A stretch of 64,000 nt of DNA, taken from the NCBI GenBank assembly GCA_016937995.1, contig JAFGVM010000057.1:17526-81525 (forward strand), read 5' to 3'. Below the pieces are notes generated by a model. It was not told the DNA's origin and did not search any database. It saw only the letters and a program-made list of their open reading frames with translations. The stretch comes from Candidatus Delongbacteria bacterium. Lineage in GTDB: Bacteria; UBA4055. The position numbers were made by a program, and so were the translations under genes. Shown piece by piece: positions 31,011 to 63,863 of the stretch (position 1 is its first letter; every line of letters begins with the position of its first letter).

Positions 31011-34000
31011 ATGAAAAGTTTAATATCAATAATACTGGTACTGTGTGTCTCTCTTTCTGCTGCTTTTGTAGATAAGGATAGAGCACAAAAAGTTGCAGTA
31101 AATTTCTATAAGAACCGCTGTCCTGAAGTGACTGCTAAATCAGGTGCAAATGTTGTGAAAGTCATTGAAAATGTGTATATGGGAGAAGTGACCAGATACA
31201 CTGTTAAATTCGAACAAGGTTTTGTGATCATTACTTCAAATGATCAACTAAAACCTATTTTAGCATATTCAGACCACGGAACTGTTCCAGACCCTGATAA
31301 ATTGGGTGGTCAGAATTTTAAAGAATGGATCGAAAACTATGACAGACAGCTTTATTGTGGAAAATCCAGTAAATATGTTGATGAAGCTGCCGTTCAACAG
31401 TGGATAGATATTGAGAACAATGTTTTTCCAAAGTCTTACAATATAGTTGTTGATAGACTCGTAGAGAGTAAGTGGGATCAAATATATCCCTGGAACGATC
31501 AATGTCCTGAAAAGGACAACACATGGACTTATGTTGGTTGCATAGCTACTACAATGGCACAAATGCTAAATTATCATCAATGGCCTGTTACCGGAGAAGG
31601 AACAGTTTCATATGATTGGAATGGAACAACTTTATCTGCAGATTTTTCAACTTTAAATTTTGATTATTCAATGATGAAAGATGAAATTGTGATCGAATGG
31701 GGATTATATCCTGAATATTGGGAATCCATGAATATGAACCAATCTGAATTGGATATGCTGGCAAGTCTTTCTTATAATATGGGACTTTCGGTTGAAATGG
31801 ATTATGGTACAACTGCCGATGGTGGTTCGGGACAAACCGCATTAGGTGTTGCAGATGCTTTCATGGATCATTGGAAAGCAGCTTCTTCTGTTTTTTATAG
31901 TTTAGGTACACCATTATTACCAGAAGAAGACGCTGCACTAATACGATCTGAACTTGACGCAAAAAGACCCTGGTTCTGGGCAGGTGGTCTTCATGCATTC
32001 TTACTCGACGGTTATACCAGTGATTACTGGTATCATTTTAACTTCGGCTGGGGTGGAGATTATGACGGTTGGTTCCAGAGAACTTTTATAATTCCAGGAG
32101 GAGTTGGTTCCTGTGATACTGGCGGGGGAGATTTCACTGCAAGTCAGATAGGTATAACATATGTGCCTTTGAACGATCCTTTTACAGCATGGCCTGCACC
32201 GGAAAATTTTACGGGACAATTATTGAACGATTCAGATGTTCAGCTAACCTGGACAAAACCTTCTACAGGTAACCCACTTAGTTACAATATTTATAGATCT
32301 GTGGATCACACTGAGCAAAAATTGATCAACAATACAATATCTCTATCCTACAGTGATCTAAATTTGTCAGCTGAAGACTATGCTTATTCTGTTAAGGCAG
32401 TTTATTCTGACGGAGAATCACATTTTACCGATACATACTATGTTCAGATTACCGAGCAAGAAGAATACCCAATAGCTGAAAATCTGTCTGCGACACCTGT
32501 CGGAAGGACCAGTATTGATATAGAATGGACAAAACCATATACCGGTATTATTTTCTTTGAAGAGGATTTTGAAACCGGTATGACAGGATGGGTTCAAAAA
32601 CAATCTGTAGCTGCCGGTGTTAAATCACCTTCTAGAGATTATTTCAAAGATAATATTGATGGCTGGATGTTAGTTGACTATAGCACATTCAACTCAGATG
32701 AATACATTCATAGTGGATATAACGCAACAGGACTTTCTTATTCTGCAGGTTCAAATGGGAATGGTCCATGGAGTTGGAACTTCACACCGGAATTTACTTT
32801 ATCTTCCAACGGATTTATCAGTTTTTGGATATGGTATAAGAATAACGAAACAGAAGGATGGCTTACTAACATTAGAGGTTATTTGTATACGGGCGATTTT
32901 ACTGAGGCAAACACAATTCAAGCTGAAGCTAATTTGACAAATATATTCTCTTGGGATGGTTCAGTTCTTGGCGAAGCTGGGAATAATCTCTATGATTCGG
33001 AAGTATTTTTCGATATTTCTGCTTACACAGGCACATATAGATTCGGTTGGGCTTATGAGTATACTAATGGTTATCAGTTAGCTATAGATGATGTCATTTG
33101 TGGAAGTAATCAGGGTGGAACTGATGAACCAACAGGATATGAAATTTACAGAAATAACACTTTGGAAGCTACAATAAATGATCCAGAAGCAATTTTCTGG
33201 TCGGATACTAATTTTGCTGACGGAGATAATGAATATTTTATAAGAGTGCTTTATCCTACAGGACAATCGATCCCATCAGACAGGGTAACAGCTTTTATCG
33301 ACGCAAATCCCAAACCTGATTTTCTAACAGGTGTTTTTAATGATCTAAGCAATGATGTTGAATTGAACTGGTATATGCCATACGGAACACCTCCTCACTG
33401 GTCAGCATATATTGCTCCAGAAAATTGTACTACGACAGTTGATTATTTAGATGATACTGATTGTGCAAGAAGAAGAGTTGAATTCAGAGCAGAGGAGTTA
33501 GGGCTCTATTATCCAGTTACAATTGATTCTTTAGCAGCGGGATTTTATGAATGGGAAGATGAACCGTGGAATGGTAATACCTTTGTTATCAGACTATGGG
33601 AAGGTCATCCTATTGATGGAGGTGTACTGCAATATGAATCCGGTACACTTACTGCAATTTCCGGAGAAATATACAAAATAGGTTTACCGATGCAGGTTGT
33701 GGTAAACGGGGAATGGAATGTTGAAGTAGAGGCATTGGACGTAACGACCGGTCACCCATCAACTCTTGCTGGTCCTTCGACTTCTGGAATAAACAGTTAT
33801 TTTTACTATACTCAAGAGAGTTCGTACAATTATTATGTTTCATCCGGTGGAGAACCTTTGACATACTGTATGATAGCTCATGTTACAAGTGGAGACCCCG
33901 ATCCAATTGTTAAATCTGGTTGGACAGCAGAAAAAGAACTCGTTGAAAAATTACCAATGATCGACAATAGGGTTAGAAAAATTGCAGACCTGAAAATTTC

Positions 34001-34454
34001 AGGAAAAGGATTGGACTATTATAAAATTTATAGAAATGATGTGATAATCGGTACTTCTACAACTACAAGCTATACAGATAACTCTCTTGTATACGGAACT
34101 TATACATATTATGTAACAGCCTGCTATTTAAATCCGGTAGGTGAGTCAGATGGAAGTAATACTGTTGAAGTAATTGGTGGAATTGATCCTCCGGGACCTT
34201 TTCTTAATCCGGTTCCAAGTGTTTTAGGGAATACATTAACAATATCATGGGATCCCTTAGCCGAAGCAACAGGATATAATATCTATTCGTCAACAGATCC
34301 CTATGGAACATTCACTTTGGAAGATTCAGTAGTTGGTACGACATGGGAATCAACAATAATGCTGGATAAGAAATTCTTTTGCATAACAGCAACAAATGAA
34401 ATGAAAGAACCTATGAAAGAAATTAGGGTGAAACAACCGGGTCTAGTTAAGTAA
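31011..34454 (+). CDS. Secreted C10-family (streptopain-like) cysteine peptidase, multidomain
   Basis: The 1147-aa exported protein has a signal peptide (1-19), then an inhibitory propeptide of the Spi/C10 type (about 20-95, GFVIITSNDQLKPILAYSD). The peptidase domain (about 145-390) carries catalytic Cys177 in VGCIATTMAQMLNYHQWP, His328 in GGLHAFLLDGY, and HFNFGWGGDYDGWF. Then come Fn3/Ig-like modules (about 395-490, repeated near the C-terminus as YKIYRNDVIIGTSTTTSYTD) and a jelly-roll adhesin-type segment (EEDFETGMTGW, 520-700). No recognisable T9SS sorting tail is seen at the end (VKQPGLVK). It probably degrades extracellular protein. Its promoter is weak (TTGATA at 30961). Confidence 0.88.
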   Translation: MKSLISIILVLCVSLSAAFVDKDRAQKVAVNFYKNRCPEVTAKSGANVVKVIENVYMGEVTRYTVKFEQGFVIITSNDQLKPILAYSDHGTVPDPDKLGGQNFKEWIENYDRQLYCGKSSKYVDEAAVQQWIDIENNVFPKSYNIVVDRLVESKWDQIYPWNDQCPEKDNTWTYVGCIATTMAQMLNYHQWPVTGEGTVSYDWNGTTLSADFSTLNFDYSMMKDEIVIEWGLYPEYWESMNMNQSELDMLASLSYNMGLSVEMDYGTTADGGSGQTALGVADAFMDHWKAASSVFYSLGTPLLPEEDAALIRSELDAKRPWFWAGGLHAFLLDGYTSDYWYHFNFGWGGDYDGWFQRTFIIPGGVGSCDTGGGDFTASQIGITYVPLNDPFTAWPAPENFTGQLLNDSDVQLTWTKPSTGNPLSYNIYRSVDHTEQKLINNTISLSYSDLNLSAEDYAYSVKAVYSDGESHFTDTYYVQITEQEEYPIAENLSATPVGRTSIDIEWTKPYTGIIFFEEDFETGMTGWVQKQSVAAGVKSPSRDYFKDNIDGWMLVDYSTFNSDEYIHSGYNATGLSYSAGSNGNGPWSWNFTPEFTLSSNGFISFWIWYKNNETEGWLTNIRGYLYTGDFTEANTIQAEANLTNIFSWDGSVLGEAGNNLYDSEVFFDISAYTGTYRFGWAYEYTNGYQLAIDDVICGSNQGGTDEPTGYEIYRNNTLEATINDPEAIFWSDTNFADGDNEYFIRVLYPTGQSIPSDRVTAFIDANPKPDFLTGVFNDLSNDVELNWYMPYGTPPHWSAYIAPENCTTTVDYLDDTDCARRRVEFRAEELGLYYPVTIDSLAAGFYEWEDEPWNGNTFVIRLWEGHPIDGGVLQYESGTLTAISGEIYKIGLPMQVVVNGEWNVEVEALDVTTGHPSTLAGPSTSGINSYFYYTQESSYNYYVSSGGEPLTYCMIAHVTSGDPDPIVKSGWTAEKELVEKLPMIDNRVRKIADLKISGKGLDYYKIYRNDVIIGTSTTTSYTDNSLVYGTYTYYVTACYLNPVGESDGSNTVEVIGGIDPPGPFLNPVPSVLGNTLTISWDPLAEATGYNIYSSTDPYGTFTLEDSVVGTTWESTIMLDKKFFCITATNEMKEPMKEIRVKQPGLVK

Positions 34455-48440: not shown

Positions 48441-49556
48441 ATGAAACTCAGAAAAATTATTATCATGCTGGTAGTTTTCAGCATTACAATGATCTACGCA
48501 CAGGCAAGTCAATATTCACATGACCACAATGTAACTGAAGTTGAAGTCAGTGGATACGGCTCATCCGTTCAGGTTGCTATTCAGGCAGCACAAAGAGAAG
48601 CTATATCAACTGCAATAGGTACATTTTTGACATCTGAGACAGAAATGCAGAATTACATGACAGTCAAAGACAAGATCCTTTCAAAAAGTGAAGGATTTGT
48701 AAAGTCCTTTGATGTGATCGACAGAGTAAAAGAAGCTGACGGTGGATGGACAGTAACAATAAAAGCAGCAGTTGCTAAAGATATGATCCTGACGGACCTT
48801 GAAGCACTGGGTGTTCTTTTATCTCAGCTGGATAATCCTTCAATAGTAGTTTTCTACGCACCGAAAGGAGAGCAGTATCATCCAAGATATACTGAACAGG
48901 CTATCAATCAGATCAATCAGTATTTTACAACATTCAGGTATGATGTGTATGATCTTGATCAATTGAACGCTATGATAGAAGATGATATCTCTATGAAAGA
49001 AGTCGGGTTGAACGAAGAAGTATCGATGGCTGAAATTTTGGCAAAGAAATTGAAATCAGATATTTATGTAACTGTAGCACTTATGCTGGAAGACCTAGGT
49101 AACGGTAAAAAGAAAGCTAAAGCTACTGCTAAGATATTCAATGCTTCAACAGCAAAATTACTGGGTGTACAGAACGGATACAGTGACGAGATCTATGGAA
49201 ATAACACTGCTCAGGATGCAAATATTGATCAGGCTGTTAAAAAACTTATGCCGCTTATTATGAACCAGGTTAAAGGTTACTGGAAACTTCAGCTGGATAA
49301 AGGTAAGCAGTACGTAATCATGTTCAGTAAACTTCCTAAAGGGAGAAAAGTTAAGAAGGCAATTACTGACGTTCTGTCTTCAGAGGCAAAAGAAATAAAG
49401 AAAGTTTCGACTACTGAATATCAGGTTTGGATCAGCGGTTCTATCGACGATTATATTGATGCAATCGGTGACGGAGTTCAAAATCAGATCTATGAAGGTA
49501 AGGATTTTGATTATGAGAATAGGGGAGACAGGATAAACATTTTCCCAGTGGAATAA
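48441..49556 (+). CDS. FlgT/LPP20-like exported protein (copy 1)
   Basis: The 371-aa protein has a signal peptide (about 1-20). The first domain, VTEVEVSGYGSSVQVAIQAAQREAISTAIGTFLTSETEMQNYMTVKDKILSKSEGFVKSFDVI (about 30-90), is the FlgT N-terminal/LPP20 pattern. A second domain (about 125-260) reads LDNPSIVVFYAPKGEQYHPRYTEQAINQINQYF and KSDIYVTVALMLEDLGNGKKKAKATAKIF. There is no lipobox. A close paralogue lies at 55734. No flagellar genes are in the window, so an envelope role unrelated to flagella is likely. Confidence 0.75.
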   Translation: MKLRKIIIMLVVFSITMIYAQASQYSHDHNVTEVEVSGYGSSVQVAIQAAQREAISTAIGTFLTSETEMQNYMTVKDKILSKSEGFVKSFDVIDRVKEADGGWTVTIKAAVAKDMILTDLEALGVLLSQLDNPSIVVFYAPKGEQYHPRYTEQAINQINQYFTTFRYDVYDLDQLNAMIEDDISMKEVGLNEEVSMAEILAKKLKSDIYVTVALMLEDLGNGKKKAKATAKIFNASTAKLLGVQNGYSDEIYGNNTAQDANIDQAVKKLMPLIMNQVKGYWKLQLDKGKQYVIMFSKLPKGRKVKKAITDVLSSEAKEIKKVSTTEYQVWISGSIDDYIDAIGDGVQNQIYEGKDFDYENRGDRINIFPVE

Positions 49557-49767: not shown

Positions 49768-49889
49768 CGTAGTTAAATTGAAATAAATAAAAGTTCTGAA
49801 GTCCGAAATCCTAAGGTCGTTACTATGGATCAGGACCGATGGGTCGCTCTCGAAAGGGAACGGTCTCCCGTGCTTGGAAAGGAGCTGAA
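49768..49889 (+). ncRNA. Candidate structured RNA leader (riboswitch-like), unassigned class
   Basis: Between promoter and ribosome site lies a compact, unusually GC-rich stretch in an AT-rich gap. Stem 1: GTCC..ATCC with GGAT..GGAC (about 49800-49850). Stem 2: GACCG closed by CGGTC, with an inner hairpin TCTC-GAAA-GGGA. The 3' part GCTTGGAAAGGAGC contains the ribosome site of the next ORF, and GCTCT in stem 2 could alternatively pair with GGAGC, covering the AAAGGAG. This arrangement is typical of a translational switch. I could not match it to a known riboswitch consensus (cobalamin, TPP, SAM, c-di-GMP, Moco and others considered). Confidence 0.5.
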
Positions 49890-50012
49890 ATGAAAAATAT
49901 CAATACCTACTGTTTTATATTTGCAGTTACAACCCCCAATACATATTTTAATTCGGAAATTTTTCCAAGCATGAACTTTTATTTCCCTGAGTTTAAAATT
50001 TCTAAATTATAA
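49890..50012 (+). CDS. 40-aa leader ORF, unknown
   Basis: The ORF begins MKNINTYCFIFAV and ends FKISKL, with an excellent GGAAAGGAG ribosome site seven bases upstream of its ATG. It ends 17 bases before the lipoprotein gene. It has no signal peptide or membrane helix of usual type and is rich in Phe, Tyr, Asn and Thr. It may be a genuine small protein or a regulatory leader peptide coupled to the structured RNA before it. No homologue is recognised. Confidence 0.45.
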   Translation: MKNINTYCFIFAVTTPNTYFNSEIFPSMNFYFPEFKISKL

Positions 50013-50029: not shown

Positions 50030-50845
50030 ATGTTAAAGAAAATGACTGTTGCACTTTTTAGTGTGCTAATGATTATGTCCATCTTCACTGCTTGCACAGA
50101 TGAAAGTGATCCGGTAGCACCCGTAATTACGCCTGATGATACAATAATGTTAACTGTTGATGAAACTATTGATTCAACTTCTGCGTTTGAGTTCAAAGTA
50201 TCGACTGAAGATGTTACAAGAATCAAGATCTATTGGACGGAACTAGGAAGTGTTAATAATTCAGGTGAGACCGGAGATATTCAGGTATCAGTTTTAAAAA
50301 TGGATGGAGTTTCTCCGTATAAAATAATTGCAAATAGTAAAGATTTCATTAGAAAAGATAACAGTGAGATAGATGATCCTAAAGAAGTTTATGTTGATGC
50401 TGTCGAGGATACCCTGATAGTCAAAGTAGAACAAAAAACCGTACCTGGTACCTTCAAGCTCGTTGTCCAGAAAAATCCTGTTATTTTCTCTGTAAATGAT
50501 TCACTGATCGTTGATTCAGATATAAAAGATTATGAAGTATTCGTGAAAAATGCGGATAAAGCAATAATATACTGGCAGGAATTAGGTACATCTGAAGTGG
50601 GAAATGATAAAACTGCAAATGTTCAGGGGTCAGTTTACCAAATGGATTGGTTGACAGCTTACAAGCAGATCGAGAATGGTAAGGACTTTGAAGATAAAGA
50701 TAACAGCTCATGGGATAATCCTAAAGAAATCCTATTGGACAAAGGTGAGAATTTTATAAATGTAAGAATTGAAATGCTTGAGGATACAGGTGGTGTAATC
50801 GGTACATTCGGTCTGTTCGTTGTGGATACAAGTGATGAGGATTAG
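50030..50845 (+). CDS. Lipoprotein with two internal repeats, probable TonB-receptor partner
   Basis: The 271-aa protein has a lipoprotein signal with Cys22 (IMSIFTAC). Two homologous units follow: one with KIYWTELGS...VLKMDGVSPYKIIANSKDFIRKDNSEIDDPKEVYVDAVEDTLIVKVE (about 67-133), the second with IIYWQELGT...VYQMDWLTAYKQIENGKDFEDKDNSSWDNPKEILLDKGENFINVRIE (about 180-252). The family is not recognised. It overlaps the TonB-dependent receptor gene by 11 bases, so it is likely a surface ligand-binding lipoprotein for that receptor, as in SusD- or HmuY-type pairs. That is inference. Confidence 0.72.
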   Translation: MLKKMTVALFSVLMIMSIFTACTDESDPVAPVITPDDTIMLTVDETIDSTSAFEFKVSTEDVTRIKIYWTELGSVNNSGETGDIQVSVLKMDGVSPYKIIANSKDFIRKDNSEIDDPKEVYVDAVEDTLIVKVEQKTVPGTFKLVVQKNPVIFSVNDSLIVDSDIKDYEVFVKNADKAIIYWQELGTSEVGNDKTANVQGSVYQMDWLTAYKQIENGKDFEDKDNSSWDNPKEILLDKGENFINVRIEMLEDTGGVIGTFGLFVVDTSDED

Positions 50846-52958
50846 TTTCGATCTAATATTAGTTATAACTGCGATAATTTTTGCACAATTCGAAGAAGTC
50901 GTTCTTCCCGAATTGAATGTAACTGTTGAGCAGGAAAGCATAGATATCAGGAAACTTGCGGCCAGCAGAAAGATAGTTATTAATCAGAAAGATTTTGAGA
51001 GTCTGGGGGATATTACTGCAGGTGATATTATTAAAAGGTATCCCGGTCTCTGGGTACAGGGACCGGGCGGTTCGAACAGGAACGTGATGCTTTGTGGACT
51101 CGATAAAGTATTTCAATCTATAATGATAGATGGAAACAGACCTTGCGGTGGTGAATCTGACAGAGAGTTCAAGCTGGACAGAATACCACTAGACATTATT
51201 GAGAAAATTGAAATAATAAATATCCCTACTGTAGATTATTGCTCTGATGCTGTTGCAGGTGTCGTAAATATTATAACGAAAAAAAATTCTTTAAGGAACT
51301 TTCTTACACTGGATATTGCTGCAATAACAAATTCGACAAACTACGATTATGCTAACGGAGAGTCATATCTTTCACTGCAGAAAAATAAATTTTTCTTGAG
51401 TGGAAGTTACAATAGAGAGACAAGGATTAATCTCGAAGAACTGAAAGATTCCTCAACAGGTATAACTGGTGAAGTGGAAGAAGATTGTGAAATTGATATA
51501 ATATCATTCAACTTAAATTACGATCTGTTTCTTAACAAGGATACCAAGATAGCACTCAAAGGACTATTTTCAAACTTTGATGAAATAAGAGATGTTGTTC
51601 AGGATGTTAAATTCAGAACTCAGGGTGGTTTGAACTACAGAGATATCATAACAGATCAGACAATACTGAGAAGAGTTAGTCAGTTAGGAGTTATTTTTAA
51701 CCATAGGTTTGATGATTACCACGATATCTCATCAGAAATTAGTGTAAGCAGAGCTGATGATGAGAAAGAAAAATATGTCACTGAGGATAAGATCGATAGT
51801 TTTGTTTACACGGATGAGAATGAAGATCAACTGAATCATGAATATATGTTCTCTACAGATTATAAAAATCTGAATTCTTCAATATTCTCTTATTCAAACA
51901 CGGTTAAAACAGGATTAAAATTTAACTATTTGACCAGAGATTATAACAGATTTGTTAAAACCACAGAAATAGTTGATCCTGATACTGTGTTAATAGATGA
52001 AGATGGTTCATTTGATTATTCTGAATTGCAGGCAGGATTGTATTTGAGAGATGAGATCTACATCGAGTCAATTATTTTTTCTCTTGGATTAAGATCGGAA
52101 TATGCATACTATGAATATAAAGTGATCGACTCGGTCCAAACAGGTAATAATGATTATTTCTACTTGAATCCATCTTTGCTCATCAATTATAAAGTTAAGG
52201 ACAATTATATTGTTAAAGCCGGTTTTTCTAAGCAGATAGCCAGACCCCCTTTTGCCTCGGTAGTTCCAATTGATAAGATCAAAACTAAAAAAAATATCAT
52301 TGAAAGAGGTAATCCGGACTTAAAACCAGCAAATGCTTTGGTTTATAACCTGGGTTTTGAATTCTACAGTAAAAAAGAGTTTTATTCTATTTTCGGTTAT
52401 TTCAAAGATGTAAAAGATATTATTGAGATAAAGGACGTGGGTATAGATACAGCTACTGGCTATAATATCCAGCAGTATGTCAATATTTCAAAAGCACTTG
52501 TATTCGGTGTGGACTTTGAGTTCAATACTGAGCTTGATAGAATCGGGATGAAGGGATTTTCATTCTCAGGAAATTATTCATGGTTGGGATCACAGGTAAA
52601 AGATGAGAATATAGATGTTATGCGGCGTTTGAACGAACAGCCTAAGCATATCGCAAATGCCAGCTTAAGTTATAGGATTGATCCGTGGGTGGCAACAGTA
52701 GGTGGGACCTTCAGTGATGAGAAAGTGATCTGGGGTACTATTGTTGACGGTGTAGTTATTGACAAAACAGTTACAGACAGTTATCTTCAGTTCGACGGAT
52801 CAGTAAAATATTTTATGAGTGAAAATACAATTATTTATATAAATGTAAGCAATATTTTCGGAGAAGATATTACTGTTACTCAGGGGAATGTTACCGGTGT
52901 TGAAGAAGTGGGTACAAAATTTACGCTTGGTTTTAAATATGGTATGAAAGGGTCATAG
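50835..52958 (+). CDS. TonB-dependent outer-membrane receptor
   Basis: The protein is about 707 aa. A signal peptide (RISFDLILVITAIIFA) precedes the plug domain (about 40-150: GDIIKRYPGLWVQGPGGSNRNVMLCGLDKVFQSIMIDGNRPCGGES, and IIEKIEIINIPTVDYCSDAVAGVVNIITKK). A 22-strand barrel then ends LGFKYGMKGS. Cysteines in the plug (about three) are unusual. The substrate is unknown; no carboxypeptidase-like N-domain as in SusC is present. The start at 50835 overlaps the lipoprotein gene. It depends on TonB/ExbB/ExbD encoded at 1-5 kb. Confidence 0.92.
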   Translation: MRISFDLILVITAIIFAQFEEVVLPELNVTVEQESIDIRKLAASRKIVINQKDFESLGDITAGDIIKRYPGLWVQGPGGSNRNVMLCGLDKVFQSIMIDGNRPCGGESDREFKLDRIPLDIIEKIEIINIPTVDYCSDAVAGVVNIITKKNSLRNFLTLDIAAITNSTNYDYANGESYLSLQKNKFFLSGSYNRETRINLEELKDSSTGITGEVEEDCEIDIISFNLNYDLFLNKDTKIALKGLFSNFDEIRDVVQDVKFRTQGGLNYRDIITDQTILRRVSQLGVIFNHRFDDYHDISSEISVSRADDEKEKYVTEDKIDSFVYTDENEDQLNHEYMFSTDYKNLNSSIFSYSNTVKTGLKFNYLTRDYNRFVKTTEIVDPDTVLIDEDGSFDYSELQAGLYLRDEIYIESIIFSLGLRSEYAYYEYKVIDSVQTGNNDYFYLNPSLLINYKVKDNYIVKAGFSKQIARPPFASVVPIDKIKTKKNIIERGNPDLKPANALVYNLGFEFYSKKEFYSIFGYFKDVKDIIEIKDVGIDTATGYNIQQYVNISKALVFGVDFEFNTELDRIGMKGFSFSGNYSWLGSQVKDENIDVMRRLNEQPKHIANASLSYRIDPWVATVGGTFSDEKVIWGTIVDGVVIDKTVTDSYLQFDGSVKYFMSENTIIYINVSNIFGEDITVTQGNVTGVEEVGTKFTLGFKYGMKGS

Positions 52959-55733: not shown

Positions 55734-56948
55734 ATGAAGCTAAAAATGATATTTATTTTGATAACAATGTTACTTATATCTTCCTGTGTAACAGTAAAGC
55801 ATGTTTCACCAATGGAAAGGGATAAGGATAAACTTGAAGAATCACCTGTTGAAGAAGTGAAGGTCGAAGAGCAGAATCTTACCACCGGAAACAAGATCAG
55901 TCAGTATTCTCATGATCATAATATAACGGAAGTGGAAGCTCAGGGGATCGGAGTTGACAGAGAATCTGCGATCAAAGATGCTCAGAGAAATGCAATTACA
56001 ACTGCAATCGGTACATACCTTGTATCAGAGCAGGAAATGCAGAATTATATGACCGTTAAAGATGATATCCTTTCAAAGAGTGAAGGTTTTGTGAAAGCTT
56101 ATGATGTTATCGATCAGATGAGAGAAGCTGACGGGAGCTGGACTGTGACTATAAAAGCAGCTGTCACAAAAGATATCGTGATGAGCGATCTTGAGTCGTT
56201 GGGAATCCTTTTAGCACAGCTTGACAATCCATCTCTGGTTGTTTTCTACGCTCCAAAAGGAGTAAATTACGACAAAAGATATACTGAGCAGGCAATAAAT
56301 AATATTAATCAGTATTTTACTATCAACAGATACGATGTTTACGATCTTGAGCAATTGAATAAAATGATCGAAGATGACATTGCATTAAAAGAGATCGGTC
56401 TTGATGAAAATGTTACAATGGCTGAACTTCTGTCAAAGAAATTGAAAGCTGATATCTATGTTACAGTAGCAATAATGCTTGAAGACCTTGGGAACGGTAA
56501 AAAGAAAGCTAAAGCCACAGCTAAAATATTCAATTCTTCCACAGCTAAGCTTCTAGGTGTTCAGAACGGTTACAGTGATGAGATATGGGGGAATAATACA
56601 GCTTACGATGCAAATATAGACCAGGCTATCAAGAAACTTATGCCGATGATAATGAATCAGGTTAAAGGTTACTGGGTAGAACAGCTTGATAAGGGAAAGC
56701 AGTATATTCTAATGTTCAGTGATCTTCCTCAGGGAAGAGAGTACAAAAAGGCTCTATTCGATATCTTAGATACAACTGCAAGAGAAGTGAAGAAAGTTTC
56801 TTACGAAGAATATGTTATCTGGATCAGAAAGAATATTGATGAATATATCGATTCTATCGGTGATGCAATTCAAAAGCAGATATATGATGGTAAGGAATTC
56901 GATTATGAGAATAGGGGTGAGCGGATAAATATTTATTTGACGAAATAA
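55734..56948 (+). CDS. FlgT/LPP20-like lipoprotein (copy 2)
   Basis: The 404-aa paralogue of the protein at 48441 differs at the N-terminus: a lipoprotein signal ending ISSC (Cys17), then an acidic linker of about 40 residues before SQYSHDHNITEVEAQG. From there the two are largely identical: AQRNAITTAIGTYLVSEQEMQNYMTVKDDILSKSEGFVKAYDVID, LDNPSLVVFYAPKGVNYDKRYTEQAI and AKATAKIFNSSTAKLLGVQNGYSDEIWGNNTA. The only major change is that one copy is periplasmic and the other lipidated. It has a good AAAAGGAG site. A repeat copy follows its stop. Confidence 0.78.
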   Translation: MKLKMIFILITMLLISSCVTVKHVSPMERDKDKLEESPVEEVKVEEQNLTTGNKISQYSHDHNITEVEAQGIGVDRESAIKDAQRNAITTAIGTYLVSEQEMQNYMTVKDDILSKSEGFVKAYDVIDQMREADGSWTVTIKAAVTKDIVMSDLESLGILLAQLDNPSLVVFYAPKGVNYDKRYTEQAINNINQYFTINRYDVYDLEQLNKMIEDDIALKEIGLDENVTMAELLSKKLKADIYVTVAIMLEDLGNGKKKAKATAKIFNSSTAKLLGVQNGYSDEIWGNNTAYDANIDQAIKKLMPMIMNQVKGYWVEQLDKGKQYILMFSDLPQGREYKKALFDILDTTAREVKKVSYEEYVIWIRKNIDEYIDSIGDAIQKQIYDGKEFDYENRGERINIYLTK

Positions 56949-59310: not shown

Positions 59311-59847
59311 ATGGTTGATTTTTATATCGATGAAATTATTCGGGTTATGCATGAGAAAGCTGAGGATATGACGTATTATCTGCACAAAGAAACAGGTGAC
59401 ATTATATATATAGATGAAAACATCGCATCAGGGGTTGAAAAGGAGTATGATCAAACAACAACAGTCATTGAAGAATGGAGTTCAGATGTTGAGGATGATG
59501 ATATGTACCACGAAAAAATTTACTCACCTACTGATGAACTTGATGAGAAGGAATTAATCAAGAGAGTAAGATTTACCAAGCAGGACGATTATGAACCTAT
59601 TCCTACGGTTACAACAAGCGAAATGAAAAAGATCGTGGAAGAATATCTTGAGACTCAAACTGATTATGATGAAGATCTGAAAATGGCGATAATGACATCT
59701 ATAAAAAATATTCCATCTTTTGAAGAAATAGAAGAAACGTTACTAAAACATATTTCAGACAAAGAAAAGTGGAACAATTTTTATCAGGAAACCATTAAGA
59801 ACAGAGTTGTGAGCTGGTTGAAAGGATTAGGTTTCGAAGTTATGTAA
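59311..59847 (+). CDS. UPF0158-like protein
   Basis: The 178-aa acidic protein fits the UPF0158 pattern: an N-terminal IDEIIRVMHEKAEDMTYYLHKETGDIIYID, PIPTVTTSEMKKIVEEYLE, and the C-terminal KEKWNNFYQETIKNRVVSWLKGLGFE corresponding to EEWYAFRDEALREIAIEWC of the family. The function of UPF0158 is unknown. It has its own promoter. The structured element copy B starts at its stop codon. Confidence 0.72.
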   Translation: MVDFYIDEIIRVMHEKAEDMTYYLHKETGDIIYIDENIASGVEKEYDQTTTVIEEWSSDVEDDDMYHEKIYSPTDELDEKELIKRVRFTKQDDYEPIPTVTTSEMKKIVEEYLETQTDYDEDLKMAIMTSIKNIPSFEEIEETLLKHISDKEKWNNFYQETIKNRVVSWLKGLGFEVM

Positions 59848-59994: not shown

Positions 59995-60020
59995 AAAAGG
60001 GAGTGGTCCCTTTTTTTTTT
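59995..60020 (+). terminator. Terminator after copy B
   Basis: AAAGGGA-GTGG-TCCCTTT followed by a long T run (about ten). Confidence 0.85.
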
Positions 60021-60075: not shown

Positions 60076-60711
60076 ATGAGATGTAATAATGACATAAATG
60101 AATTTGTTAAGGTAATTGCCAGTCAAGGTCTGGTAATATTACCGACAGACACTATCTATGGGTTTTCCTGTCTTCCGACATCGATCCATGCTATTGATCG
60201 GATTAAAAGTATCAAGAAAAGGTCAGATAAACCATTTATTATCCTTGATACCGATATGAAAAGGATGAGATCATATTTTAAATATGCTTTTGCTGACAAG
60301 GTGGTCAGAGAGATGATAAATGATAAAGTATGGCCGGGCAAAGTGACAGTCATAGCAGAAAAGTGTGCTAAAATAGACTATCCGTTTTTATCAGACATTA
60401 ATACGATAGCTGTAAGATGGCCGGATAACGATCTGATAAATGAATTGAATACGAAACTGAATTCTGGAATCATCAGCACGAGTATTAATAATTCTGGAGA
60501 GAAGGAGATAAATTCTTTATCCGAGATCAAGCATAATTATCACGACAAGGTCGATCATATTTGGGAAGATAATTCAGAATGTAATATACCATCGTTAATA
60601 ATCAGGATAGACAGTGAGTACAAAAAATTAGTGGTTGTAAGAGATCCCGGTACAACTGAATCCAAAGAAATATTGTTTAAACTGGATAATATAATAAATA
60701 GATGCCGATAA
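60076..60711 (+). CDS. L-threonylcarbamoyladenylate synthase (YrdC/Sua5 core)
   Basis: The 211-aa YrdC-fold protein has LVILPTDTIYGFSCLPT near residue 19 and the SIKKRSDKPFIIL motif near 48 with the K-x-R and S binding residues. The family signature VWPGKVTVIAEK near 92 and GIISTSINNSGEKEI near 138 follow. It makes threonylcarbamoyl-AMP for t6A37 of ANN-decoding tRNAs. Only the YrdC core is present (no Sua5 C-domain). The ribosome site is poor. It overlaps the DnaE-like gene by 10 bases, so the two are coupled. Confidence 0.9.
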   Translation: MRCNNDINEFVKVIASQGLVILPTDTIYGFSCLPTSIHAIDRIKSIKKRSDKPFIILDTDMKRMRSYFKYAFADKVVREMINDKVWPGKVTVIAEKCAKIDYPFLSDINTIAVRWPDNDLINELNTKLNSGIISTSINNSGEKEINSLSEIKHNYHDKVDHIWEDNSECNIPSLIIRIDSEYKKLVVVRDPGTTESKEILFKLDNIINRCR

Positions 60712-63700
60712 ATATTTATACTCAATATACAAAACCGGAAGGTTCGATCAAATTTGATGATCTTGTGGCTGAGGCTAAAAAACTGGGTATAGATGCACTG
60801 GCATTGACCGATCATGGTAATTTTTCGGGTATTGAAGAGTTTTATAATGCCGCATTAACGGCAGGGATCAAGCCGATAATAGGAATAGATGTTTTTTGTA
60901 AACTTGAAAATGAACATTTCATCAGATCAATATTCTATATAAAAAATGAAACCGGTTACCGTTCAATACTGGACCTGATAAGCAACTTCAAACTGGCTGA
61001 GGAAGGATTTTACTATTTTTCTGTAGACTATCTTAAAGGTCTTCATGATATAATTATGATGGTAAACCTTTTTAAAACAGATCATCTGTCATCTCTTGTC
61101 AAAATAGATACCGACATTGAAGAGATCCATACACGGTTAAAATATTCTGACCTCAGGATAAAATATTACTTTCAGGTAATAAAAGATGATTCACCCGGAA
61201 ATTCTCTCATAACTTCTAATATTTTAGAATATGCCAAGGATAATGAAATTGAGCTTATTGCTCAGAATCCGGTTTATTATCTTAAAAAGGGTGAAGAAGA
61301 TGTTGCAGAATTTATGTTGAAGATGGGAGGGATCTTGCAGGAAGGTAAAAAAGATAAAAATCAGTATCTGGGAAGCCTGGAAGATCTTGCACATTTTTTT
61401 CCGAAGGGATCAATAGAAAATAAACAGAAGATAATTAAAGAATGCAATTTCCTGATAAGTAAATTGCCGATCAGATATCCTGATTTTGAACTTAAAACAA
61501 AAATTGACTATTCTTTTAACGAAACTTTAAAAGATATGGTCTGGCAGCGTCTTGAGTTCACTAAAAATGAAGAGGACAGGGAGAAATTAAAAGATATAAT
61601 ATTTGCTGAATTAGCTTATATAAGAAAATTTAATATTGCAGATTATATAATTTTTCTAAAGGAGTTTAAGGAAGAGTATAAACAAAAGTTCAATGGTGGA
61701 ATATTTTTCACTGGATTTGTAAGTGATCTTTTCATTGCTCATGCACTTGGACTTACCTGGTCTTCACCACTTTATATCACTCAAGCTTATCACAGATCTA
61801 TGCTGAAAAGTAAAAAATTACATCCTGTAATAAACATTATAATAGCATCAGATAAAAGGGATGAGTTCATTGAATATGTAAGCGGGAAATTCGGGAAGGA
61901 TAAAGTATGTTATTTGAGTGAATATGTCCGCTGGCATTCATTATCTCTGATAAATACACTGGTCAAGGAGTTCAAAGTTGACAATTCCAGTAAGGATGTT
62001 TTTATCAAGCATTTGAGCACTTTGAGCAAATACGGTTCGATAAAAGATATTATGGCGCAGGAGGATGTGAAAAAACTTCTGGTACGTCATCCTGAATATA
62101 AAGATATTTTTGCAAAAGCGGTAAAAACTGACGGGTGCTTTAAAAATTATAGTACTAATTCCAGTCAGATCGTTATAGGGAGTAAACCTATTAAAGAATT
62201 ATTACCAGTAAGTAAGACTTCTAATCTGGAATCAGGCGTTCTAAGATCTTTTTATGATATAAACACAGCAAAGTATTTTGGAGTTTGGAATATTAACATA
62301 GAGTCTCATACATATTTATCAATACTTGCAGAAGCCACTTCTCTGATCGAATCCGATAAGACAAAGATAAATGAACTCGCTAAAAAATTAACTGAGAGAA
62401 TAAAAAATGAGGATACGGATCTGATTCCGTTCTTCTCTTATGATGTGAACCGGGTCAGGTATCTGGATTTTACAAAAAATTATTTATTGAATTTAGCATT
62501 ATATTTTGAAGCGGGAAGGTCAAAACTGGATATTATTTTCAAAGATGAAAAAGAAACTCCTCCTCTGAAGAAATTTGAAAATGACCTTAAGATCACTGGT
62601 GGATATGTAGTTTTCAGAGAGCAATTGTTCTATGTTTGTGAAAAATTATTCCCATCGCAAGAATTTTTAAGTCTTAAGCATGGTATTTACAATAGTTCAA
62701 TTTATAACCAGTTCCAGTTCATACTCGATAGGCATCATGATGATAAGAAGAATGCTCAAAAGATAACCTGGTTAAAGAAAAAGGTTATAAATTCCGTGTT
62801 CTATGCCTCTTTATCCGAAATATCACTGAAGATATTCACTTCTTTAAAAATTCTTGACCTGAAATTATCTAAACCTAAAAAGTTTTATGAGATATTTTTT
62901 GTCAAAGAGGTAGAGAAAGAGGGGAACTGGAGAAAATTATTGATTGATATCCTGCAGATAGGATATAAGATATCAAAATACAATTCGCAGACCATTGTTA
63001 AAAATATTCAACTGGATAAGCAAAATTTAGAATTCAAATTACCTTTGTACACTGTGAAAGGAATTTCCCATAAAGTTTCAGATGTGCTTTATGAATATTT
63101 CAGTTCATCAGGTTTTTTGAATTTCAAGGGTTTTCTGGAGACAATAGATAAAGAAGTGATCAAGCACAATATTGTTAGTTTATTGATCAAAGTAGGTTTC
63201 TTCGATGATTATGATTCAAACCGCAAACAATTATTGCAGATAAATGATATTTACTTCAGGGAATTGAAGAACGAAGCTGTTCAGGATGAATTATTCTCAG
63301 AGGGATATGTGGAGCTTCAGGACGATGAAGTGGACGATTATTCCATTTTTGAGAAGATAGAACTGGAAAAGGAGCTGGTCGGTTTTGCTATCAGTGAACT
63401 GTCTCATACCAAAGAGGAATTTCTAAGTTATATTAAGTTTGAAAATAATATTTTGATCAGCAATATTCTAAAATTCGATGCAGTGAGAAAAGAGATATAT
63501 TTTTTTAAGGATAATCAACCGATCGCTCTGAATTTTAATGATGAGTTTATTTTAGAAGAATCAGCATTTTATAAAGTGTGGTACAGTGAAGAGAACGATA
63601 TTACGCGGTATGAGGTTTTAGAGAATATTTATAAAGATTCTGCTTATGTTCTTTATGTATCTATTCCTTCCACCAATAAGGATATCCTGACCGGATTACT

Positions 63701-63863
63701 GGAAATGACAAGGGATGAGGGTAATTGTGAGATTGAGATATTGTTTTCAGATTCTTTTGAGATCGTGAAACCTGGAAAAAGTATTTTATTGACAAAAACT
63801 AATTTTGAAAAGATCAAAAAATTGCTGAAAGACCTACCGTTTTATTTCCAACCAAAGGAATAA
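60702..63863 (+). CDS. DNA polymerase III alpha-subunit homologue lacking catalytic residues
   Basis: The 1053-aa protein is homologous to DnaE along its length. The PHP domain (1-~260) retains ALALTDHGNFSGIEEFYNAA and GIKPIIGIDVF, but the first HxH is IYTQYT. In the polymerase region, IADYIIFLKEF...GGIFFTGFVSDLFIAHALG (about 312-350) is the counterpart of the GRGSAAGSLVAYALG palm motif. HPVINIIIASDKRDEFIEYV (374-393) stands where PDIDIDFCDERRDEVIEYV should be, so both catalytic Asp are absent. FGVWNINIES (526-535) replaces the third (K-F-D-F-L-G). The C-terminal HhH-like region (KGISHKVSDVLYEYF) and a QDELF clamp motif (861-865) remain. It is about 100 residues shorter than E. coli DnaE. It probably cannot polymerise DNA. 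Confidence 0.85.
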   Translation: MPINIYTQYTKPEGSIKFDDLVAEAKKLGIDALALTDHGNFSGIEEFYNAALTAGIKPIIGIDVFCKLENEHFIRSIFYIKNETGYRSILDLISNFKLAEEGFYYFSVDYLKGLHDIIMMVNLFKTDHLSSLVKIDTDIEEIHTRLKYSDLRIKYYFQVIKDDSPGNSLITSNILEYAKDNEIELIAQNPVYYLKKGEEDVAEFMLKMGGILQEGKKDKNQYLGSLEDLAHFFPKGSIENKQKIIKECNFLISKLPIRYPDFELKTKIDYSFNETLKDMVWQRLEFTKNEEDREKLKDIIFAELAYIRKFNIADYIIFLKEFKEEYKQKFNGGIFFTGFVSDLFIAHALGLTWSSPLYITQAYHRSMLKSKKLHPVINIIIASDKRDEFIEYVSGKFGKDKVCYLSEYVRWHSLSLINTLVKEFKVDNSSKDVFIKHLSTLSKYGSIKDIMAQEDVKKLLVRHPEYKDIFAKAVKTDGCFKNYSTNSSQIVIGSKPIKELLPVSKTSNLESGVLRSFYDINTAKYFGVWNINIESHTYLSILAEATSLIESDKTKINELAKKLTERIKNEDTDLIPFFSYDVNRVRYLDFTKNYLLNLALYFEAGRSKLDIIFKDEKETPPLKKFENDLKITGGYVVFREQLFYVCEKLFPSQEFLSLKHGIYNSSIYNQFQFILDRHHDDKKNAQKITWLKKKVINSVFYASLSEISLKIFTSLKILDLKLSKPKKFYEIFFVKEVEKEGNWRKLLIDILQIGYKISKYNSQTIVKNIQLDKQNLEFKLPLYTVKGISHKVSDVLYEYFSSSGFLNFKGFLETIDKEVIKHNIVSLLIKVGFFDDYDSNRKQLLQINDIYFRELKNEAVQDELFSEGYVELQDDEVDDYSIFEKIELEKELVGFAISELSHTKEEFLSYIKFENNILISNILKFDAVRKEIYFFKDNQPIALNFNDEFILEESAFYKVWYSEENDITRYEVLENIYKDSAYVLYVSIPSTNKDILTGLLEMTRDEGNCEIEILFSDSFEIVKPGKSILLTKTNFEKIKKLLKDLPFYFQPKE

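Follow-up and report, generated by a model that had tools for sequence, protein, structure and literature searches.

A full-length DnaE paralogue without catalytic motifs in Candidatus Delongbacteria

Motifs and predicted fold of iDnaE

The window analysed here is a stretch of 64,000 nucleotides from the genome of a Candidatus Delongbacteria species. It contains a gene for a full-length paralogue of the replicative DNA polymerase DnaE, which we call iDnaE and which appears catalytically dead by its motifs. The gene and its parts are the following:

60702..63863, plus strand: iDnaE, full-length DnaE paralogue, catalytically dead by motif, 1053 amino acids (open reading frame, Pfam, PDB, alignment, predicted fold)
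60702..61451, plus strand: PHP domain, residues ~1-250, metal site lost (Pfam PHP 1.4e-21; 8 of 9 ligands changed; 4gx8, Z 24.3)
61707..61733, plus strand: FTGFVSDLF, residues 336-344, replacing GRGSAAGS of the palm (alignment)
61821..61850, plus strand: HPVINIIIAS, residues 374-383, replacing the PDIDID strand with D401/D403 (alignment; predicted strand 377-381)
62277..62306, plus strand: FGVWNINIES, residues 526-535, replacing the KMDFLG strand with D555 (alignment; predicted strand 529-535)
63033..63233, plus strand: helix-hairpin-helix (HhH) region, residues 778-844 (HHH_6 5.4e-5, under the Pfam cut-off)
63282..63296, plus strand: QDELF, residues 861-865, clamp-binding-like motif at the DnaE position (alignment)
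63636..63860, plus strand: C-terminal domain, residues 979-1053 (sequence alignment to the DnaE C-terminal domain)

The reading frame starts with ATG and comprises 1053 codons without an internal stop. Besides the PHP model, the protein matches the Pfam model DNA_pol3_alpha (6.6e-19) and, in the PDB, the alpha subunit of E. coli DNA polymerase III (Pol III; 4jom, 1.3e-27, residues 3-550). The Pfam and 4jom matches identify iDnaE as a genuine DnaE homologue and exclude a chance frame, in agreement with a first-pass annotation of the window that had described a full-length homologue with an intact frame. The NCBIfam model polc was matched with 2e-57; for TIGR00594, iDnaE scored 195 bits versus a curated cut-off of 434, and the curated NCBI cut-offs were missed widely.

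The catalytic columns were read from an L-INS-i alignment with active DnaEs, including the intact DnaE of the same genome. The columns of D401, D403 and D405 are occupied by V376, N378 and I380, respectively, and that of D555 by N532. The Lys of KMDF corresponds to N530, the Arg of GRGS to T337, and the Arg of YRPGP to F602. All three catalytic Asp residues are gone (V376, N378, N532), as the first-pass annotation had claimed, and the segments that it quoted (HPVINIIIAS, FTGFVSDLF, INIES at residues 531-535, and QDELF) lie exactly where it had placed them. The catalytic Asp residues of the C-family polymerases have been reported as absolutely conserved.

The nine PHP ligands H,H,D,H,E,H,C,D,H are N,Y,E,H,D,R,F,P,Y in iDnaE, and the active-site set is absent. 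H38 is the sole unchanged ligand and two of the replacements are conservative (D to E, E to D); the loss of the PHP HxH motif, likewise noted before, was confirmed by these eight changes. According to a recent survey, the active site HHDHEH[C/H]DH is also missing from many true DnaEs (PMC12926913). The same polymerase and PHP columns are intact in the second DnaE of the source genome. The replacement residues Y6, E13, R75 and P190 are fixed in the iDnaE clade, which argues for selection rather than erosion. FGVWNINIES is nearly invariant across seven close orthologues; this pocket sequence is not retained in the two divergent genomes G004 and G007. By its motifs, iDnaE should be incapable of DNA synthesis and of PHP-site proofreading.

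An AlphaFold2 model of iDnaE (30-row alignment, mean pLDDT 81) indicates that the DnaE fold has been retained. Entries for Pol III alpha, PolC or an alpha-epsilon chimera make up the top 23 Foldseek matches of this model, and VIA-align superimposed 810 residues onto E. coli alpha (2hnh) with a Z of 32.6 and a root-mean-square deviation of 5.3. Strands are still predicted at residues 377-381 and 529-535, where active DnaEs carry D401/D403 and D555, respectively. The palm was checked for acidic residues by means of the alignment plus these predicted strands, and no conserved acidic triad was seen among the 11 orthologues. The Pfam fingers model PF17657 is undetectable; nonetheless, the predicted fold aligns across that region, through residue 856. 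The prediction is poor for the OB region and of low confidence for the linker at residues 860-870, in which the clamp motif lies. The HhH-like region, which had been said to persist, does so: HHH_6 is weak here and passes the Pfam cut-off in the orthologues L035, L036 and L038. The body of DnaE, namely the PHP fold, the palm/thumb scaffold, the HhH region, the clamp-motif linker and the C-terminal domain, is kept.

Among the seven close orthologues, the fraction of invariant columns is 21% in the PHP domain, 21% in palm/thumb, 16% in the fingers-equivalent region and 25% in the HhH region, and 10%, 3% and 7% in the linker, the OB region and the C-terminal domain, respectively. Nine orthologues share L864 and eight share F865; these are two of only five invariant residues among the 50 columns of the linker. 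The Gln of the clamp motif is mostly missing from the active DnaEs of the phylum too (DNSLF, ENNLF).

Distribution, descent and selection

iDnaE occurs in 11 of the 13 Delongbacteria genomes examined and in all seven of the seven genera; the Asp triad is kept in none of the 11 orthologues. The named relatives are mostly Candidatus Delongbacteria, and two are labelled bacterium UBP11_UBA4055 and uncultured bacterium. The iDnaE-free genomes are G001 (88% complete) and G006 (91%). Both also lack the UPF0158 gene that neighbours iDnaE elsewhere and contain one Sua5 gene instead of two. The whole locus is therefore absent from them, which is most simply explained by assembly gaps. A search of 386 genomes separated the clade clearly: full-length members scored at least 1137 bits and truncated ones 776 and 929 bits (one of these giving an additional 462-bit fragment), versus at most 222 bits for non-members. 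Contamination was rejected: the contig that carries the locus is 81.5 kb long, and synteny of the locus is seen across nine genomes. A phage origin was likewise considered; a pattern scan of IMG/VR yielded no relative of iDnaE in viral contigs.

Reading the sequences revealed an intact DnaE in 12 of the 13 genomes, with only a contig-edge fragment matched in G009; in 10 of the 11 genomes that contain iDnaE, the presence of an intact DnaE beside it was confirmed. The second intact dnaE that was sought in the source genome was found: it encodes 1172 amino acids (G000:C22) with intact PDIDID, GRGSAAGS and KMDFLG motifs. The Delongbacteria bin G003 contains a DnaE2-like protein with an intact PDFDID motif near a Y-family gene (L047:2954-6010), which is Bacteroidetes-like and probably a contaminant of this bin.

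In the phylogenetic trees, the iDnaEs form one clade (SH-aLRT 100) with a long stem of its own and without a firm placement inside or outside the DnaE2 group. The stem branch has a length of 2.97 versus 0.65 for the active Delongbacteria DnaE. The split of G004 plus G007 from the remaining iDnaEs mirrors the tree of the active DnaEs, and this matching deep split speaks for vertical descent from the ancestor shared by all sampled members of the phylum. A position as sister to the phylum's own DnaE, as expected if iDnaE arose by duplication of that gene, was not rejected in one data set (p-AU 0.66) and received a borderline value of 0.07 in another.

Nei-Gojobori dN/dS values for iDnaE are far below 1, namely 0.05 for G000/G002, where dS is near saturation, and 0.12 for G005/G009. 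Within the genus, iDnaE is almost as well conserved as the active DnaE: sequence identity between G000 and G002 is 79.9% for iDnaE, compared to 83.4% for DnaE, 83.0% for UvrD and 67.3% for a Sua5 paralogue encoded next to iDnaE. The first-pass annotation had proposed a selected, non-catalytic paralogue and had suggested examining whether the inactive forms constitute a single clade conserved in relatives. The proposal is supported by the single clade, the clade-wide loss of the triad and these dN/dS values. Since the orthologues of related genomes also lack the triad and belong to one clade, iDnaE is not a single decaying copy. Judged from sequence comparison, iDnaE is a selected pseudopolymerase and not a product of decay.

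Gene neighbourhood and other features of the window

Upstream of iDnaE, the following features were identified:

59311..59847, plus strand: gene of the UPF0158 family, preceding iDnaE in 9 of 11 genomes
59995..60014, plus strand: terminator-like hairpin, a consensus match only, separating the UPF0158 gene from the Sua5-iDnaE pair
60076..60711, plus strand: second Sua5/YrdC paralogue, 10-base overlap with iDnaE, directly upstream in 8 of 11 genomes

The overlap with a YrdC-type gene had been noted earlier and was verified. The order UPF0158, Sua5-like, iDnaE is found in eight genomes; in G012 a contig break falls within iDnaE. G008 contains UPF0158 and iDnaE with no adjoining Sua5, and iDnaE of G004 and G007 has neither neighbour. 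The Sua5-like gene is a second copy; it has diverged from the canonical Sua5 encoded elsewhere in each genome, and in most genera it accompanies the iDnaE locus.

No imuA/imuB or Y-family gene was recognised beside iDnaE in any of the 11 genomes, the open reading frames being judged by reading. Y-family genes occur in 8 of the 13 genomes and were not found in G004 (94% complete) and G011 (95%), both of which contain iDnaE; an obligate partnership with a Y-family polymerase is unsupported by this distribution. DnaN was found at one locus per genome, with an extra weaker match in G012 and none in G002 (79% complete), and this search gave no sign of a dedicated second clamp. Overall, there is no indication of a mutasome or of a clamp reserved for iDnaE.

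Three further observations concern other parts of the window. A Mo/W cofactor riboswitch (Rfam RF01055, 58.3 bits) is located at 49782-49900, upstream of an unassigned open reading frame at 50030-50845 and a TonB-dependent receptor gene at 50820-52958. Positions 31011-34454 encode a secreted-type protein of 1147 amino acids with a Peptidase_C10 domain (streptopain family), a Spi-like inhibitor propeptide and fibronectin type III; the host is an uncultured environmental bacterium. Two proteins contain the uncharacterised domain DUF6175 (48441-49556 and 55734-56948), both within the same 9-kb stretch.

Possible roles and comparison with known systems

The retention of iDnaE in all seven genera makes it probable that the protein has a role other than DNA synthesis. 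With slightly more than even confidence, we regard it as a vertically inherited DnaE paralogue that serves as a clamp-tethered, non-synthesising scaffold or regulator with a DnaE fold. The L-F motif would tether iDnaE to the beta clamp and the HhH region would tether it to DNA. At forks or sites of repair, the protein might thus act as a structural or regulatory platform. It may partner, pace or be exchanged with the active DnaE, by analogy to ImuB, which serves DnaE2. A function as clamp or replisome scaffold, as regulator or as partner of DnaE is in each case a prediction from the retained domains.

Several points weigh against this proposal. The fingers family is undetectable and most sister genera carry a deletion of the OB region; DNA contacts may therefore be reduced. 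Across genera, iDnaE has evolved clearly faster than DnaE. The neighbouring genes, a Sua5 paralogue and UPF0158, give no pointer to replication. In the divergent member from G007, D403 is lost, but an Asp lies near D401 and the D555 column holds a Glu. The earlier claim that the clamp motif is kept stands for QDELF in this protein and for the L-F pair, which is nearly constant in the family; it fails for the Gln, which is an Arg in G005 and G009, and for G007, which lacks the Phe and keeps only QDDL. Binding to the clamp or to DNA and the existence of a partner are predictions.

Two other functions appear unlikely to about the same degree. iDnaE could be a damage-tolerance adaptor, that is, a dead subunit that resembles ImuB and recruits DnaE or a Y-family polymerase to lesions. 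There is a precedent in ImuB (PMC11791113), the clamp-like motif is retained and more than half of the genomes have Y-family genes; however, two genomes with iDnaE gave no Y-family match, no imuA/imuB or Y-family gene lies beside iDnaE, and iDnaE is kin to DnaE and not to Y-family proteins. Equally doubtful is a function outside replication, in which the DnaE fold has been co-opted for some new ligand or partner, possibly in connection with the Sua5 paralogue or UPF0158, and the former catalytic pocket has been remodelled (FGVWNINIES). The near invariance of the former D555 strand in the close clade fits this idea, as does the frequent adjacency of the Sua5-like and UPF0158 genes, the former being a second copy whose number tracks iDnaE in G001 and G006. 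Yet G008 has no adjacent Sua5, G004 and G007 have neither neighbour and have not retained the pocket sequence, and the L-F motif and HhH region have been kept.

It is very improbable that iDnaE has remained an active polymerase whose acidic residues have moved to other positions. E534, which lies on the strand that once held D555, does not vary among the seven close orthologues, and the acidic residues of G007 mentioned above point in the same direction; but E534 is not retained in G004 and G007, the D401/D403 strand of the close clade lacks any acidic residue, and the Arg of GRGS, the Lys of KMDF and the Arg of YRPGP are lost too. Least probable of all is a decaying duplicate or an assembly artefact. 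The long stem and the copy from G003, which stops at a TAG just before the contig end, could be taken as signs of it, whereas the frames are open in the other ten genomes (in G012 on two contigs), the local gene order is conserved in nine, and dN/dS is far below 1. Decay to a pseudogene was ruled out on the basis of the open frames in relatives and the dN/dS values.

The scaffold or regulator that we propose for Delongbacteria is not the only inactivated DnaE. A second family of full-length DnaE-like proteins was first met as L112 in genome G024 during outgroup checks (L162:6353-9508 in G024; L156-L161; L174-L186). Orthologues exist in 7 of 8 genomes of the order of G024, and 38 of 39 genomes of its class match the family profile at 1e-80, G391, G405 and G413 only via a DnaE1-sized protein. 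The Asp set and GRGSAAG are lost in all 20 of the 20 sequences read; most keep L-F and many keep the PHP HxH. The family coexists with DnaE1, and G024 additionally has a DnaE2. It thus resembles iDnaE in being full-length and DnaE-like, in the loss of the Asp set, in the L-F motif of most members and in the presence of DnaE1, and differs in that the PHP HxH is often kept and that the replacement residues are others. A mixture tree joins both families (SH-aLRT 99). However, both are long branches, and in profile comparison iDnaE lies nearer to active DnaE1 (score 449) than to the second family (274); a close kinship of the two dead families is therefore not claimed. There were one or two inactivations of DnaE, and either way pseudo-DnaEs are not a one-off.

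The B and Y families already provide examples of dead polymerases that have turned into structural parts, and the X family is reported to include inactivated members. In the accessible part of a survey of 3070 complete genomes, four C-family groups are described, and inactive members are reported for the X and Y families and none for the C family (PMC12926913). As this survey was restricted to complete genomes, it left out the Delongbacteria, which are represented here by metagenome bins. Another C-family survey demanded an intact active site (PMC3919608). Among open-licence papers, we found nothing further on DNA polymerase III of Delongbacteria or on dead DnaE paralogues. In our estimate the chances are evenly balanced that dead DnaEs are standing, selected replication or repair parts in no fewer than two deep bacterial lineages, one an entire phylum and the other an entire class, and that they represent a type of non-catalytic C-family subunit unreported in current surveys. 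The C family comprises the enzymes that copy bacterial chromosomes; the phylum-wide pseudo-DnaE and the second case suggest an extra DnaE-shaped, non-synthesising part in some bacterial replication or repair systems.

Compared to DnaE1/Pol III alpha, iDnaE is homologous over the PHP, palm/thumb, HhH and C-terminal regions, has a clamp-like motif at the same position, and its model overlays E. coli alpha (Z 32.6). It differs by the missing Asp triad, GRGSAAGS, KMDF Lys, YRPGP Arg and PHP metal site and by the undetectable fingers family. ImuB, the dead Y-family polymerase that serves DnaE2 in the mutasome, is similar in concept, since it combines a dead polymerase fold with a clamp-binding motif and works beside an active C-family polymerase (PMC11791113). 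In contrast to this Y-family protein, iDnaE belongs to the C family by homology and fold, lacks imuA/dnaE2 neighbours and does not obligatorily co-occur with Y-family polymerases. The inactivated B-family module of eukaryotic Pol epsilon is, in concept, likewise a dead polymerase that serves as a structural part (PMC2669801). That module is fused within one chain, whereas iDnaE is encoded by a separate C-family gene.

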